Assembly: GCA_028876065.1 (NCBI GenBank)
Contig: JAGWTI010000003.1
Location: 1-64,000, forward strand
Direction: 5' to 3'
Length of the DNA stretch: 64,000 nt
Source of the DNA: Nitrospirota bacterium
Lineage (GTDB): Bacteria; Nitrospirota; Nitrospiria; Nitrospirales; Nitrospiraceae
How positions within the stretch are numbered: the stretch's first letter is position 1; the number at the start of each line of letters is the position of its first letter. Below are positions 32,235 through 37,153 of the stretch, piece by piece. The notes under the pieces were generated by a model. The model was not told where the DNA came from. It searched no databases and saw nothing but the letters and a program-made list of their open reading frames with translations. The translations under genes and the position numbers were made by a program.

Positions 32235-33044
32235 TCAGACTTGTTCCAGCGTCTCCTGCGCGACCGGATCGGAGAGTTCCTCGTCCGCCCCAGAGTCGGA
32301 GCCGGCCACCACGAGAGGATCGTCGCCCACCGGCAACATTTCCTGCTCCGGCTCTCCCAGCTCTTTAAACTCCCGCAAGGGCGGCAACTCCGAGAGATCG
32401 CGCAGGCCGAAGTGCTGGAGAAAATACTTGGTCGTCCCGTACATGATGGGGCGACCGGGCATCTCCTTCCGGCCCACCATGCGAATGAGCTTGCGTTCGA
32501 GCAAGGTGCGGATCACGCCCGAGGCCTCCACGCCGCGAATCTGCTCGACCTCCGCACGAACGATCGGTTGCTTGTAGGCGATGATCGCCAGGGACTCCAG
32601 GGCCGAGCGAGACAGCTTCGGCGCCGGCTTGTTCTTTTCCAGTCGCTTGATCCAGGGACCGTAATCCGAGCGGGTCACGAGCTGAAACCCGCCGGCCACC
32701 TCCACGACTTGCAGGCCCCGCCCGGCCTGATCGAACTCTTCCTGCAAACTCCGCAAGGCCTGGCGCACCTCGGCCTTCGGCACCCCTTCCAGCACGGAAG
32801 CCAACCGCTCCACCGCCACCGGCCCATGCGACACGAATAAGAGCGTCTCAAGGATCGCCTTCAGCTCCCGCAAGGCCAGCGCTTCGGATGCGGCTGAAGC
32901 CGGCACGGCCTCGACGGCCTGCGCCTCCGCTCCGCCTGGCTCCGCCCCGCCGACGGACGCCGCCATCTCTTCGAACAAGACCAAGTCCCCAGCCGCCTGC
33001 TCAGGCAGGCCCTCAGACACTGGCGCCTCAGACCTTGCGCTCAT
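32235..33044 (-). CDS. scpB: Segregation and condensation protein B
   Basis: 269 aa from ATG 33044, after GGAGGAT. Two winged-helix domains occupy about residues 60-220 (ELKAILETLLFVSHGPV; LSRSALESLAIIAYKQPI; RGVEASGVIRTLLERKLI; YGTTKYFLQHFGL). N- and C-terminal acidic, Ala/Glu-rich extensions of about 55 and 45 residues flank it. With ScpA and SMC it forms the bacterial condensin for chromosome organisation. It begins 11 bp after scpA on the same strand. Confidence 0.96.
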   Translation of the reverse strand: MSARSEAPVSEGLPEQAAGDLVLFEEMAASVGGAEPGGAEAQAVEAVPASAASEALALRELKAILETLLFVSHGPVAVERLASVLEGVPKAEVRQALRSLQEEFDQAGRGLQVVEVAGGFQLVTRSDYGPWIKRLEKNKPAPKLSRSALESLAIIAYKQPIVRAEVEQIRGVEASGVIRTLLERKLIRMVGRKEMPGRPIMYGTTKYFLQHFGLRDLSELPPLREFKELGEPEQEMLPVGDDPLVVAGSDSGADEELSDPVAQETLEQV

Positions 33045-33055
33045 AGACCATCCTC

Positions 33056-33829
33056 CTAAACGTAATCCGAGAACTCCCCCTCGACCCCCTGCTCCATCGG
33101 CGAAAATGCCCGCGTGAGCAGAATCTGACCGAAGGTTTCCGCCTGAAAGACCAGGACCAACTTGAGCCGCGTCAACTCCAACAAGGCCAGGAACGTCACG
33201 ATGATGAACAACCGGTGCCCTTGCTCCTCGAACAGCGCGAGAAAGGTCACCGACTCCTTACCTTCCAGGATTTCCAGTATGGCGTTCATCCGATCCTTCA
33301 CAGTGAGCTGCTCCGCCGCGATCTCGATCAGTTGCCGATGCGGGGTCCGAACGAGCACCGATTGCAGGGCATCGACCAGATCAAACAGCGTGACTTCTTC
33401 CAGCAGCGTCTCGGCCGCTTTGGCCGGCGTGGGCAGAGCCTCCACCCTGGCAAAGACGTCGCGCCATTCCCGCTCACGGCTGTCCAATTGGCTGGCGACA
33501 TCCTTGAACTGCTTATATTCCAAGAGCCGCCGGATCAATTCCTCCCGCGGGTCCGGTCCATCCTCCTCGTCTCCCTCGGTCGGCTCGGCCGGCAACAGCA
33601 TCCGCGCCTTGATTTGTACCAGGGTGGCAGCCATCACAAGAAATTCCCCGGCCACCGCGAGGTTCAACGACTTCATGAGGCTCAAATACTCGAGGTATTG
33701 CTGGGTAATCAGCGCGATCGGGATATCGTAAATATTGATCTCGTTCTTCTTGATCAGATGGAGCAACAGGTCGAGCGGCCCCTCGAACTTCTCAAGTCGA
33801 ACTTGATATGGAATTTCAAGCTGTTCCAC
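33056..33829 (-). CDS. scpA: Segregation and condensation protein A
   Basis: 257 aa from GTG 33829. It is the kleisin subunit: YQVRLEKFEGPLDLLLHLIK at the N-terminus, DIPIALITQQYLEYL and LVMAATLVQIKARMLLP in the middle, and a C-terminal winged helix (SVTFLALFEEQG, VTFLALLELTRLKLV). It bridges SMC heads and binds ScpB. The following scpB is 11 bp away. A promoter is proposed at 33868-33896. Confidence 0.96.
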   Translation of the reverse strand: MEQLEIPYQVRLEKFEGPLDLLLHLIKKNEINIYDIPIALITQQYLEYLSLMKSLNLAVAGEFLVMAATLVQIKARMLLPAEPTEGDEEDGPDPREELIRRLLEYKQFKDVASQLDSREREWRDVFARVEALPTPAKAAETLLEEVTLFDLVDALQSVLVRTPHRQLIEIAAEQLTVKDRMNAILEILEGKESVTFLALFEEQGHRLFIIVTFLALLELTRLKLVLVFQAETFGQILLTRAFSPMEQGVEGEFSDYV

Positions 33830-33948: not shown

Positions 33949-35055
33949 TTAGGACTGTTTCTTCAGCAAGTACACAAACCAGACCATGAAAAGGAGCAGG
34001 ACCGCCACAATTCCATACATGATGCGGGGATCTTGCAAACCATGCGGGAATTGACGCTCCCCGGTAAGTTTGGTTCTGGTGAAGCGAGGCTCGACGGAAA
34101 ACATCACCTTGGAAAAATCGTCCACCCCGCGGAATTCCGCATCCGAGAAATCGGCTTGGCCGGAAAAGGTGGCGCGACGGAAATAGGCATCTTTCGCAAA
34201 CACCGTAAACGTAAAAAACGCTTCCCGCTCGAACCGGGCTTCGGAGAAATCCAGCATGCCTCCGAACCGGCTGCCGGAGAATCCGGCCCCCAACCGAAAG
34301 TAGGCTTGGCCGAATCGGGCCTCTTGTCGAAACTGGACCTCCAGGAATTCAGCCAGCCCGTTGAACCCGGAACGATGGAAGGTCACCGGGCCGGCAAAGT
34401 CGGCCCGATGAAACCGCGTATGCGTGCCAAATGCGGTTTCTTCAAATTTCGCCCCCGCGCCAAACCAGGAACGGATAAAAAATCCCTCCCGCAGGATCAC
34501 GGCATGGGATCCGTCCACCACGCCTCCGAAAAGGACATGGGACAAATCCAGCATGCGCTCGAAGGTCGTCCCCGTCATCGTCACCGGACCATTGATGACC
34601 AGCCATCCCGCGGCGAGATTGGTCTTGATCGTTCCTCGAACCAAAGAGTCCTTGATCGTGACGGGACCGGCGATCAGACGAATGTCCCGCATGTCTTGCA
34701 CGGGAATGACGTCTTGAATGTTCGACGGCAGTTCGAACACCGCGTCGGGTTTCAGCGGAGGCAGCTGGTCCAAAACCACATCGCCGGTCACAACCGCCCG
34801 CTCGAGATCGATCCCGCGACCGGCCTTCAACGCGTCCAACAGCTCGCCGGCTGTCACGGCCTGAGCCTCTCGTTCCTGCTGGGTGCAGTCCTGTCCGAAA
34901 TGTCTGGTGAAGGGTGCCGGAGCCCCCGCCCCTCGCTCGACCAAGCAGGCACCGGCGGCGGAGGCCCAGGGGGCCAAGACCACAAAGAGAAGCGTCGCGA
35001 GAACAGCCGTCCAAAGATTCGAGGAAGGGTTCGAGGTTTGTGCGAACACGCGCAT
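33949..35055 (-). CDS. Exported pentapeptide-repeat protein with C-terminal membrane anchor
   Basis: 368 aa from ATG 35055. A signal peptide (LLFVVLAPWASAAG) ends near residue 34. Residues about 160-330 repeat a five-residue period with central Phe (for example FRQEARFGQAYF, FSEARFEREAFF, FSDAEFRGVDDF), the quadrilateral beta-helix of pentapeptide proteins. The C-terminus has a membrane helix (YGIVAVLLLFMVWFVYLL) and a KKQS tail. It would sit in the periplasm, anchored at its end. The binding partner is unknown. It is divergent from the exported Lon-type peptidase with 88 bp between their starts. Confidence 0.8.
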   Translation of the reverse strand: MRVFAQTSNPSSNLWTAVLATLLFVVLAPWASAAGACLVERGAGAPAPFTRHFGQDCTQQEREAQAVTAGELLDALKAGRGIDLERAVVTGDVVLDQLPPLKPDAVFELPSNIQDVIPVQDMRDIRLIAGPVTIKDSLVRGTIKTNLAAGWLVINGPVTMTGTTFERMLDLSHVLFGGVVDGSHAVILREGFFIRSWFGAGAKFEETAFGTHTRFHRADFAGPVTFHRSGFNGLAEFLEVQFRQEARFGQAYFRLGAGFSGSRFGGMLDFSEARFEREAFFTFTVFAKDAYFRRATFSGQADFSDAEFRGVDDFSKVMFSVEPRFTRTKLTGERQFPHGLQDPRIMYGIVAVLLLFMVWFVYLLKKQS

Positions 35056-35143
35056 CGCGCTTCTTATACGAGCGGCGAATACCAAAAGCAAGGAGCCGCC
35101 CTCGCTCTTGACTGGGCCAACATGCCTCCCTACACTGAACACG

Positions 35144-35851
35144 ATGGATACCGACGGAGACAGACACCGGACAAGGCCGGCACGCCGACTCCATCCGCTC
35201 CTGTTGGTGCTCGTCTTCGGAGCCTTGACGACATGGCCGCTGATCGATGCCGGCCGGACCTCAGCCGCCCAGGTGGTGGAAGTGCCGGTCTTGGCGGCGA
35301 TCAACGTCAACAATAAGGGCGCCTTCCAGGTGATGGTCATGAGTTGGGACCGGCAACCAGCTCCGGACCCCATCGAGGCCAAATTCGGCAACAACCGCGT
35401 GAGAGTCAAAGGGACCGCGCTCGACGCCTTGAGCGCGGCCTTGTTCTATGCGGTGACGCAGAGCGATGCGCTCCACCCGACCGGCACGATCACGATCTAT
35501 GGAGCCTCCTACGCGCCGACCAACAGCGACGGCCCCAGCGCCGGCGCCGCCATGGCCGTCGGGTTTCTGGCTGTCTTGCGCGGAGACCCGATTCTCCGCG
35601 GCGTCGCCCTCACCGGCACGCTGCAGCCGGATGGGCGGATCGGCCCGGTCGGCTCCATCCCCGACAAAGTCCGCGCGGCCGCTCGCGAAGGGTACCGCAC
35701 GATCCTCGTTCCCCAAGGTCAACTCGACCAGGGTCCGTTGAGCGACCCCAGATGGAATCTGAATGGATTGAGCATGGAGTTGGGATTGACGATCAAGGAA
35801 GTCGCGACCATCGCCGAGGCCTATGCGCTCATGACCGGTCGCCGGCTGTAA
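35144..35851 (+). CDS. Exported stand-alone Lon-type (S16) serine peptidase
   Basis: 235 aa from ATG 35144. An N-terminal hydrophobic segment (LLLVLVFGALTTWPLI) precedes the S16 domain, so export or anchoring is expected. The Ser-Lys dyad is visible: Ser in SDGPSAGAAMAV and Lys in GSIPDKVRAAAREG, linked by LTGTLQPDGRIGPVG as in Lon proteases. There is no AAA+ ATPase or Lon substrate-binding domain, unlike Lon. The upstream part of the frame to 34883 lies over the antisense gene and is excluded. No ribosome site is obvious. Substrate unknown. Confidence 0.82.
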   Translation: MDTDGDRHRTRPARRLHPLLLVLVFGALTTWPLIDAGRTSAAQVVEVPVLAAINVNNKGAFQVMVMSWDRQPAPDPIEAKFGNNRVRVKGTALDALSAALFYAVTQSDALHPTGTITIYGASYAPTNSDGPSAGAAMAVGFLAVLRGDPILRGVALTGTLQPDGRIGPVGSIPDKVRAAAREGYRTILVPQGQLDQGPLSDPRWNLNGLSMELGLTIKEVATIAEAYALMTGRRL

Positions 35852-35893: not shown

Positions 35894-36343
35894 TCACGCT
35901 CGCTCCAGCCCGTTGAGCAGTGCCGCATACTGTTCCTGCGTCACGCGATGCATGCCGAGGTTCAGACGGCGGGTCAACTCCGCCTGATCGGGCACCTCGA
36001 GCACCTGATGCAGCAGGGCCAAGCTGGCCTCGGGAGTGCTCTGCCAACTCTGCGTCACCTTCACCCGCACAAATCCATAGCGTGTTTCTTCGCGCAGTTC
36101 GTCCCGGACGAATTCGTCCAAGTCCTCCGGAGGCAGCACGCGGGATTGGATGGTAAAACCGGCTCGCAGGCCTTGTTTCAACACATAGACCAACCCGCAC
36201 GAACCGTCCGTCATGTAGGTGCGCAGATTGTCTCGAATCAACGCCGTGCGCAGGCCCCAGAGGTCATGCGCGAGTTGGACCTCCGCGCTGGCCTGAGAAC
36301 TGCGCTCCCGCAACGCGCCGGCGATAAATAGGAAGTGGCTCAT
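35894..36343 (-). CDS. Conserved hypothetical protein, 149 aa
   Basis: Not recognised. It starts MSHFLFIAGALRERSSQ (ATG 36343), then QLAHDLWGLRTALIRDNLRTY, CGLVYVLKQGLRAGFTIQSR, DEFVRDELREETRYGFVRVK and a C-terminal helical part. Composition is ordinary for a soluble cytoplasmic alpha/beta protein. The N-terminus is only mildly hydrophobic, so a signal peptide is doubtful. A frame extension to 36409 exists but lacks a ribosome site. The neighbours give no clue; the gene stands alone between convergent S16 peptidase and a histone-like gene. Confidence 0.65.
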   Translation of the reverse strand: MSHFLFIAGALRERSSQASAEVQLAHDLWGLRTALIRDNLRTYMTDGSCGLVYVLKQGLRAGFTIQSRVLPPEDLDEFVRDELREETRYGFVRVKVTQSWQSTPEASLALLHQVLEVPDQAELTRRLNLGMHRVTQEQYAALLNGLERA

Positions 36344-36450
36344 GGAATGGCACACACGGAAGGAAGCGGAGCAGCTTGGCGACAACCTCTCGAACTGGCC
36401 CGTTGGCACACGACGGACGGCAGCCGCTCCGAGACTACCAGGCTGGGCGA

Positions 36451-36984
36451 TCAGGCATTATGATAGTCGTCGTTCTCCCCCGACAGGTCATCCGGTTTAT
36501 CCAGGTAATCCGGTTCCGCTTCCTCATCGTCCAGCGACAACTCCTCGTCACGCATCTCCTCACCCAACTCTTCCTCTATCTCCTCCTCGGGGAGTTCCAA
36601 CTCATCCGCCAGATCTTCTTGCATGGCCTTCGACTCCTCGTCCATCATCGGACGAGCCGGCCGGTGCAACGCCTTGGCTGGAGCCGGCGCCGAGGTCATC
36701 GGCTTGGCGGAGACGGGAGCGGGCGTCGCTGTAGGGGCGGCTTTCTTCGAGACTTTCTCGGCGGCCTTTTTCGTACCCTTCTTGGCTGCCCGAGGTGACG
36801 GCTTGGGGGACGCGGCTTTCTTTCGTTTCTGGGCGGCTTTTTTGGCCGACTGTTTGGCTGCGACCTTCTTGCCCGCGGCCTTGGTTTGCTTGGTCTTGCC
36901 CCGAACGCCTCGCCCTTTTGCTCCGGCTTTCTTGGCGATCTTCTTTGCGGATGTTTTGCCCCGTTGCTTCCGTTTCGTCACCAT
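36451..36984 (-). CDS. Histone H1-like Lys/Ala-rich protein with acidic C-terminus
   Basis: 177 aa from ATG 36984, preceded by GAGGAGAGG. Residues 1-95 are Lys/Ala-rich with repeated KKA, KKAA and TKKAAE units like bacterial H1-type (Hc1/AlgP) tails. A Pro/Ala linker follows, and about residues 125-177 are strongly acidic (EEEIEEELGEE, DEELSLDDEEAEPD). The basic half should bind nucleic acid; the acidic half may regulate it or bind basic partners. Low complexity prevents family assignment. Confidence 0.75.
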   Translation of the reverse strand: MVTKRKQRGKTSAKKIAKKAGAKGRGVRGKTKQTKAAGKKVAAKQSAKKAAQKRKKAASPKPSPRAAKKGTKKAAEKVSKKAAPTATPAPVSAKPMTSAPAPAKALHRPARPMMDEESKAMQEDLADELELPEEEIEEELGEEMRDEELSLDDEEAEPDYLDKPDDLSGENDDYHNA

Positions 36985-37153
36985 CCTCTCCTCCTCTGCT
37001 CTCAATCTCGACGGAGCCACCTGACGCCGCACCCATCTAGCATGAATCAGGCACGGCTTGCAACCATGTCCAAGCCGAGGCCGAATCTCCGGCTGACGTC
37101 CCGCTATCCGGATAAAAAGACAGGGGCCCGGAACCGCACGGAACGGGAACGAG

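Follow-up and report, generated by a model that had tools for sequence, protein, structure and literature searches.

Introduction

The Lon protease fold is usually ATP-powered and intracellular. In the parts of the published accounts available to us, SepM of Streptococcus is composed of a membrane helix, a PDZ domain and an S16 domain (PMC11197336), and YlbL of Bacillus of a membrane helix, a Lon domain and a PDZ domain, with no ATPase; YlbL works alongside CtpA on YneA, a membrane protein, and purified YlbL without its membrane part had no activity in vitro (PMC6051672). MtaLonC is described as an ATP-independent Lon-like protease (PMC3391209). On the side of pentapeptide-repeat proteins, the secreted protein YjbI of Caulobacter has recently been shown to act in envelope regulation and to be lost upon stress. 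According to the portion of that paper on which we draw, YjbI combines a secretion signal with two Cys pairs and a C-terminal tail that is charged and embedded in the membrane, the terminal lysines being important for function; the protein disappears upon zinc, copper, sucrose or acid stress, its Cys residues being dispensable for this turnover, and the authors ascribe the loss to an extracytoplasmic protease, e.g., of the CtpA type, with none identified there (PMC12864828). The same paper calls Rfr32 (2g0y) a YjbI orthologue.

Here, we describe a divergent gene pair in which a predicted exported S16 domain (PEP) stands beside a predicted exported pentapeptide-repeat protein (PENT), found in a 64,000-nt stretch of DNA from a Nitrospirota bacterium (hereafter the window). 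Literature searches returned no paper joining Nitrospira and 'peptidase S16' and, among the matches listed, no paper on the PENT-PEP pair.

Results

Layout of the locus

A sequence-only reading of the window had placed the starts of the two genes 88 nt apart and reading outward, and the exact coordinates agree. The genes of the locus are as follows:

32235..33044, minus strand: scpB, downstream of scpA
33056..33829, minus strand: scpA, the next gene after PENT and in the same direction; a conserved neighbour
33949..35055, minus strand: PENT, predicted exported pentapeptide-repeat protein; ATG at 35055, stop at 33949, 368 aa
35144..35851, plus strand: PEP, lone S16 (Lon-type) peptidase domain, predicted to be exported; 235 aa, from the ATG at 35144 to the stop at 35851
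35894..36409, minus strand: W9, a 171-aa ORF that converges on PEP; conserved

W9 had no Pfam match at E 0.01. The same was true of a 193-aa Lys/Ala-rich, histone-like protein encoded at 36451-37032 of the window.

The S16 peptidase

PEP can be divided into two parts:

residues about 1-41: signal peptide (sequence prediction)
residues 43-235: S16 fold (structure model)

The protein matched the Pfam profile Lon_C with 50.7 bits (cut-off 21.1), which places it among S16 domains, and a Lon_C match at E 0.001 or better was found in all 44 members of its alignment. Besides Lon_C, the Pfam search returned only a sub-cut-off ChlI match over the same region and no ATPase domain, and the Ser-Lys dyad is present as Ser132 and Lys175; on both points, the sequence-only reading was right. 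The two residues are 43 positions apart, the spacing of Ser679 and Lys722 in E. coli Lon. Over 36 aligned rows, Lys was found in 36 and Ser in 34, the exceptions being L004, a locus of the incomplete genome G002 that has a two-residue gap at this point, and L021, a divergent paralogue with Thr. Ser132, Lys175, Asp129, Gly130, Gly134, Thr157 and Gly158 were invariant in a 26-row orthologue alignment that excluded L004, and in a 44-row alignment that included the L004 genome and one row of the related family B, Lys175 was invariant and Ser132 was kept in at least 90%.

The structure model of PEP (pLDDT 79) was superimposed on the E. coli Lon proteolytic domain (1rr9) with Z 21.5 and an rmsd of 2.5 over 170 aligned residues; in this model, the Lon proteolytic fold spans the whole mature part of PEP. 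A low-confidence loop (residues 123-128) lies shortly before Ser132, so that the exact active-site geometry is uncertain. As for export, an N-terminal hydrophobic stretch (KD 1.6 or more) was found in 61 of 64 aligned PEP sequences, in agreement with the signal-like start claimed earlier, as far as a sequence prediction goes. Cys is absent after residue 40 in 58 of the 64 sequences, and an AxA-E/D motif stands directly before a conserved VVExPVLAA in many relatives (judged by eye). PEP is thus predicted to be exported, its signal peptide is most likely cleavable, and if so, the protein is probably soluble and periplasmic, leaving PENT as the only clearly membrane-anchored partner.

Like SepM and YlbL, PEP is predicted to be an extracytoplasmic S16 protein with a serine-type active site and no AAA+ ATPase. 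It differs from these two, which combine an N-terminal membrane helix with a PDZ domain, in that a Pfam search at E up to 1 found no PDZ domain in PEP and that PEP probably keeps no lasting anchor; against the SepM family profile, it reached 27 bits (cut-off 200), which leaves it outside that family. PEP shares the proteolytic fold and the dyad spacing with LonA and LonB, but lacks the ATPase and substrate-unfolding part, carries no AAA+ module in the same chain and is predicted to be exported. With MtaLonC, it would share Lon-like proteolysis without ATP, judging from its domain content; MtaLonC, however, carries a large N-terminal portion that may include a dead AAA-like domain, as far as the available portion of its description goes, whereas PEP consists of nothing but an S16 domain following a signal peptide. 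By analogy with the presumed role of SepM and YlbL, we infer that PEP may be an ATP-independent periplasmic serine endopeptidase that cuts flexible or unfolded exported chains. A link of PEP to defence systems was rejected, because the profile matches were weak and confined to the Lon domain (CARF-Lon, E 6e-4; CRISPR-Lon, E 6e-3).

The genome of the window contains five Lon_C matches, two of them within frames of over 830 aa. Several further exported ATPase-less S16 families with differing motifs around Ser were observed in the Nitrospira order and were grouped by eye as L201-L205, L207 and L214; L208, L209, L211-L213, L216, L218 and L222; and L206, L210 and L217, the last group having an extra N-terminal exported part. 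In a paralogue family (L199:6334-7014, L215:5260-5940, L200:5697-6380 and L021:92-775), sampled from three genomes of g19 and one of g15, the S16 frame is retained but Thr or Asp stands at the place of the catalytic Ser (by alignment for L021 and by eye for the others); its members may therefore be inactive or altered enzymes. Two Desulfurococcales archaea (L196:9506-11641 and L197:9611-11641) encode 677-712 aa proteins with an S16 domain, in which an export signal and a hydrophobic C-terminal end were seen by eye.

The pentapeptide protein

The following parts were distinguished in PENT:

residues about 1-33: signal peptide
small head containing Cys37 and Cys57
residues about 125-330: right-handed beta-helix (model)
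residues about 330-342: linker, hypervariable among relatives and of lower model confidence
residues 343-367: membrane-type helix with a basic end

PENT (the PENTAPEPTIDE protein) scored 64.4 bits against the Pfam profile Pentapeptide_3 (cut-off 27), and all 40 members of its alignment matched the pentapeptide profile; against PF00805, it scored 13.9 bits, below the cut-off of 20.2. The structure model is confident (pLDDT 92), and its beta-helix contains many invariant positions. A Foldseek search gave no solved match at E 0.001, the first match being the pentapeptide protein EfsQnr at E 0.012, and the best match in a second structure comparison was HetL (Z 18.9, rmsd 2.8, 222 aligned residues). 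Since unrelated beta-helix tailspikes reached up to Z 16.4 against the same model and the Foldseek match was weak, the assignment of PENT as a pentapeptide protein rests mainly on the profile. HetL and PENT have the right-handed beta-helix in common, but HetL covers only residues 66-339, to which PENT adds the signal, the two-Cys head and the membrane tail. A sequence-profile search for a solved relative yielded none, with a single match at E 0.14. Rfr32 (2g0y) was not among the fold-search matches listed for PENT, which is uninformative either way.

A hydrophobic stretch is present at the N-terminus (KD 1.6 or more) in 77 of 80 aligned PENT sequences and at the C-terminus in all 80, where the modelled helix 343-367 lies; the earlier claim of a membrane anchor thus holds. 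Basic residues stand at or near the C-terminus in nearly every listed row (by eye). Cys37 and Cys57 are invariant in 80 of 80 sequences, and PENT of the window has no other Cys; such a pair in the head is consistent with a disulfide formed outside the cytoplasm. PENT is accordingly predicted to be exported, and the Cys pair, the C-terminal stretch and the model together suggest a beta-helix held at the membrane with the C-terminus passing through the bilayer. Cys37 as a lipoprotein anchor is not favoured: most relatives lack the combination of Leu, Val or Ile at -3 with a small residue ahead of the Cys (by eye; L105, with a lipobox-like sequence at the Cys37 position, is an exception), and the second head Cys, being equally invariant, also counts against it.

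PENT resembles YjbI in having a signal, an N-terminal Cys pair, a beta-helix and a basic C-terminal membrane tail. It differs in lacking a C-terminal Cys pair, and thus one of the two pairs of YjbI, in matching Pentapeptide_3 while falling below the PF00805 cut-off, and in having a full single-span helix. Because the second Cys pair is absent and PF00805 is not matched, PENT was not filed as YjbI-type; by analogy, it may nevertheless work like YjbI. Taken together, we infer that PENT is probably a membrane-tethered scaffold or sensor of the envelope.

Distribution of the pair

In a first set of 61 genomes that included the window's own, PENT was found in 54: 34 of 37 in family f1, 8 of 8 in f2, 12 of 12 in f3 and 0 of 4 in f4. 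In a phylum-wide draw of 198 genomes, 56 had PENT at E 1e-20, only in f1 and f3, with f2 and f4 not among the rows listed. When the f1 genomes were combined, PENT was present in 65 of 68 and a PEP orthologue of at least 188 bits in 35, and in all 35, PEP lies divergently adjacent to PENT. In two further f1 genomes, PEP runs off the end of a contig (G010) or is split (G021). The f1 tally therefore comprises 37 genomes with both genes (35 good, 2 damaged or cut), 28 with PENT and no adjacent PEP (the contig ending at PENT in three of them, G006, G024 and G031), none with PEP only and 3 with neither; the co-occurrence statistic itself is uninformative here because PENT is nearly universal. Among the 8 f2 and 12 f3 genomes with PENT, no PEP orthologue was found (no match above 103 bits; in G046, from f2, the contig stops 46 nt upstream of PENT), and the f2 matches inspected resemble another exported S16 family.

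The second collection returned 60 PEP-related loci, of which L194 (a paralogue), L196 and L197 (archaea) and L198 (a fragment) were left out, giving 56 orthologue loci. The divergent pair is present in 51 of them, including two that look damaged (L155, where the PENT match overlaps PEP, and L191, where PEP is split over two frames); of the other five, four begin within 284 nt of a contig end, and L192 is a truncated second copy. The start-to-start gap has a median of 93 nt and reaches 484 nt, with starts chosen by script. The related loci come nearly all from Nitrospira or Nitrospirae/Nitrospirota, the rest being the two archaea and one bin labelled Nitrosospira. The truncated copy belongs to Nitrospira sp. 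CG24E (L192:10001-10351), where it is accompanied by a copy of W9 and no PENT; the full pair of this organism lies in L188.

The arrangement is thus conserved in the co-occurrence search that had been proposed as a check. Homologues of either gene consistently lacking the other had been named as the outcome that would speak against the pair. For PENT, such homologues are common (28 of 65 f1 genomes), whereas PEP orthologues without PENT were not found, apart from the truncated L192 copy and contig-edge matches. The pair is real, vertically kept, old and conserved; PENT is order-wide and old, and PEP is younger and restricted to f1.

Neighbourhood and gene history

PENT, scpA and scpB follow one another on the same strand in 41 of 41 regions across three families (20 regions chosen with PEP, 20 chosen without PEP beside PENT, and the window), with about 2 kb between PENT and scpAB in L134. 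Of the 51 pairs in the second collection, 47 have scpA after PENT; three of the others are cut by contig ends, and L156 is a true exception. This order ties a membrane-anchored exported protein to condensin genes, and no description of it was found among the literature matches listed. In 6 of the 20 PEP-less regions, all from f1, W9 is the direct upstream neighbour of PENT and co-directional with it, which indicates that PEP is a reverse-orientation insertion into a co-directional block. On a tree of ScpA and ScpB from these 41 loci, the presence of PEP needs seven changes, and our reading of the tree is one gain at the base of f1 followed by about six losses in which PENT was kept. PENT adjoins PEP in 51 of 56 loci (51 of 52 where the contig allows), and W9 does so in 51 of 56 (51 of 54). 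Because W9 holds its place nearly as constantly as PENT, conserved adjacency is a weak argument for joint action.

The control region between the starts

The 88-nt gap contains the following promoter-like boxes:

35063..35068, minus strand: PENT -10-like box TATAAG, ending 7 nt before the ATG
35086..35091, minus strand: PENT -35-like box TTGCTT
35108..35113, plus strand: PEP -35-like box TTGACT
35131..35136, plus strand: PEP -10-like box TACACT, ending 7 nt before the ATG

The PEP promoter (TTGACT-17-TACACT, 35108-35136) was the sole site returned by a promoter scan of the region. Shuffled sequences gave a mean of 0.7 sites (sd 0.9), so that one site is no more than expected and conservation is what counts. 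The PENT promoter lies on the opposite strand (TTGCTT-17-TATAAG, 35091-35063), and both promoters are kept among four close relatives. Across relatives, with kinship uncorrected and start sites chosen by script, 38 of 83 distinct loci carried the PENT motif, compared with 0 of 4150 shuffles; for the PEP motif, the counts were 32 of 68 loci and 44 of 6800 shuffles. Two back-to-back sigma-70-like promoters, one per gene, are the simplest reading of this sequence. The spacing of 7 nt between the -10 box and the ATG predicts leaderless transcripts for both genes. Similarly short promoter-to-ATG spacing was seen in many relatives.

The sequence-only reading had considered control from a shared promoter plausible. 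As worded, this did not stand up: a single shared promoter was rejected because each gene has a sigma-70-like promoter of its own, and 16 bp separate the two -35 boxes. A shared operator within these 16 bp is likewise unsupported; they are near-identical in the window and its closest relative G003 and differ in L139 and L140, two of the four close relatives, although the promoters are kept there. Joint regulation of PENT and PEP is possible. The PENT motif was found in 35 of 63 loci with PEP and in 3 of 20 without (L124, L126 and L128), the latter comprising 3 of 11 within f1 and 0 of 9 in f2 and f3; the g19 group has PENT without the motif despite the presence of PEP. This enrichment beside PEP may point to a link, but the pattern goes with lineage.

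Selection and co-divergence

Against three close relatives, dN/dS was 0.12-0.15 for PENT and 0.22-0.28 for PEP, by a simple and crude method and with a PENT dS of about 1; such purifying selection indicates that both are real genes. The dS of PEP against the same relatives (0.41-0.61) was lower than that of PENT, ScpA, ScpB and W9 (0.66-1.18), possibly owing to recombination or overlapping constraint. When ScpA, ScpB and W9 were regressed out, the tree distances of PENT and PEP gave a partial r of 0.55 over 48 taxa, and again 0.55 over 37 taxa when the cupredoxin-like and methyltransferase neighbours were added as controls; the next-best partial correlation of PEP was with ScpB (0.33, 37 taxa). 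The PENT-PEP co-divergence is suggestive only, because pairs without an expected link reach the same level (ScpA-W9, 0.53; ScpB-W9, 0.58). In genus g6, PENT shows 38% in the one PEP-bearing genome sampled and 34-42% in PEP-less ones; PENT is thus equally diverged with or without PEP, and there is no sign that the loss of PEP leaves a mark on PENT or speeds its change.

Discussion

The question raised by these findings is whether PENT and PEP act together, and we put the odds of a functional link at roughly even. The model that we favour, unproven and with a probability of about 0.38, is that PEP processes or controls PENT. An exported protease next to PENT would be a natural candidate for control by proteolysis: PEP would cut or turn over PENT, for example in the variable linker that joins the beta-helix to the membrane helix, and this cleavage would set the amount of tethered PENT in the envelope, comparable to the stress-triggered loss of YjbI in Caulobacter. 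Both genes would be transcribed from their own promoters within one 88-nt gap, and where PEP is missing, a different protease would take over or PENT would go uncontrolled. Both proteins carry predicted export signals, the pairing holds in all 35 f1 genomes with a good PEP orthologue and in 51 of 56 orthologue loci of the second collection, and the tree distances of PEP track those of PENT above any other neighbour tested, with the others regressed out. Against this model, PENT persists without PEP in many genomes, and PEP has been lost about six times.

A reading whose chance falls only a little short of even is that the two genes are positional neighbours, PENT belonging with scpAB and having an envelope role of its own, with no direct PENT-PEP link; PEP would then be a periplasmic peptidase of general function that inserted a single time between W9 and PENT and has stayed there because the chromosome segment as a whole is stable. 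The PENT-scpA-scpB order, which holds in all 41 regions with or without PEP, fits this reading, as do the near-constancy of W9 as a neighbour of PEP, the separate promoters, the repeated loss of PEP with PENT retained, and the other contexts in which the other exported S16 families examined are located. It accounts less readily for the highest residual co-divergence of PEP being with PENT, for the compact back-to-back promoters and for no PEP orthologue having been found elsewhere in a genome, one truncated copy apart.

It is rather improbable that PENT serves as an adaptor, a tethered beta-helix that recruits or caps soluble PEP in place of the PDZ and membrane part of SepM and YlbL. In favour of this, PEP gave no PDZ match and would lack an anchor if its signal peptide is removed, and PENT has an anchor as well as a long beta-helix in which many positions are invariant. 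PENT is, however, older and widely present alone, so that its main job cannot be to serve PEP. That PEP is an inactive S16 protein retaining only the fold is very unlikely: purified YlbL without its membrane part was inactive in vitro in the portion of the study available (PMC6051672), the four family B members inspected have lost Ser, and the single incomplete genome of L004 lacks it through a two-residue gap, but the invariant or nearly invariant active-site residues in the 26-row and 44-row alignments and the purifying selection on PEP count against it. A long shot is that PEP clips the linker of a PENT sensor and that the two genes form an envelope-stress module tied to chromosome segregation through the PENT-scpA-scpB order.

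Overall, the predicted export of a Lon fold as a bare domain, diversified into several families within one bacterial order, extends a fold better known from other settings. As a secreted pentapeptide protein, YjbI, has been reported to regulate the envelope and to disappear under stress (PMC12864828, in the part available), the conserved PENT-PEP pairing offers a direct candidate for a protease that may act on a secreted pentapeptide protein.
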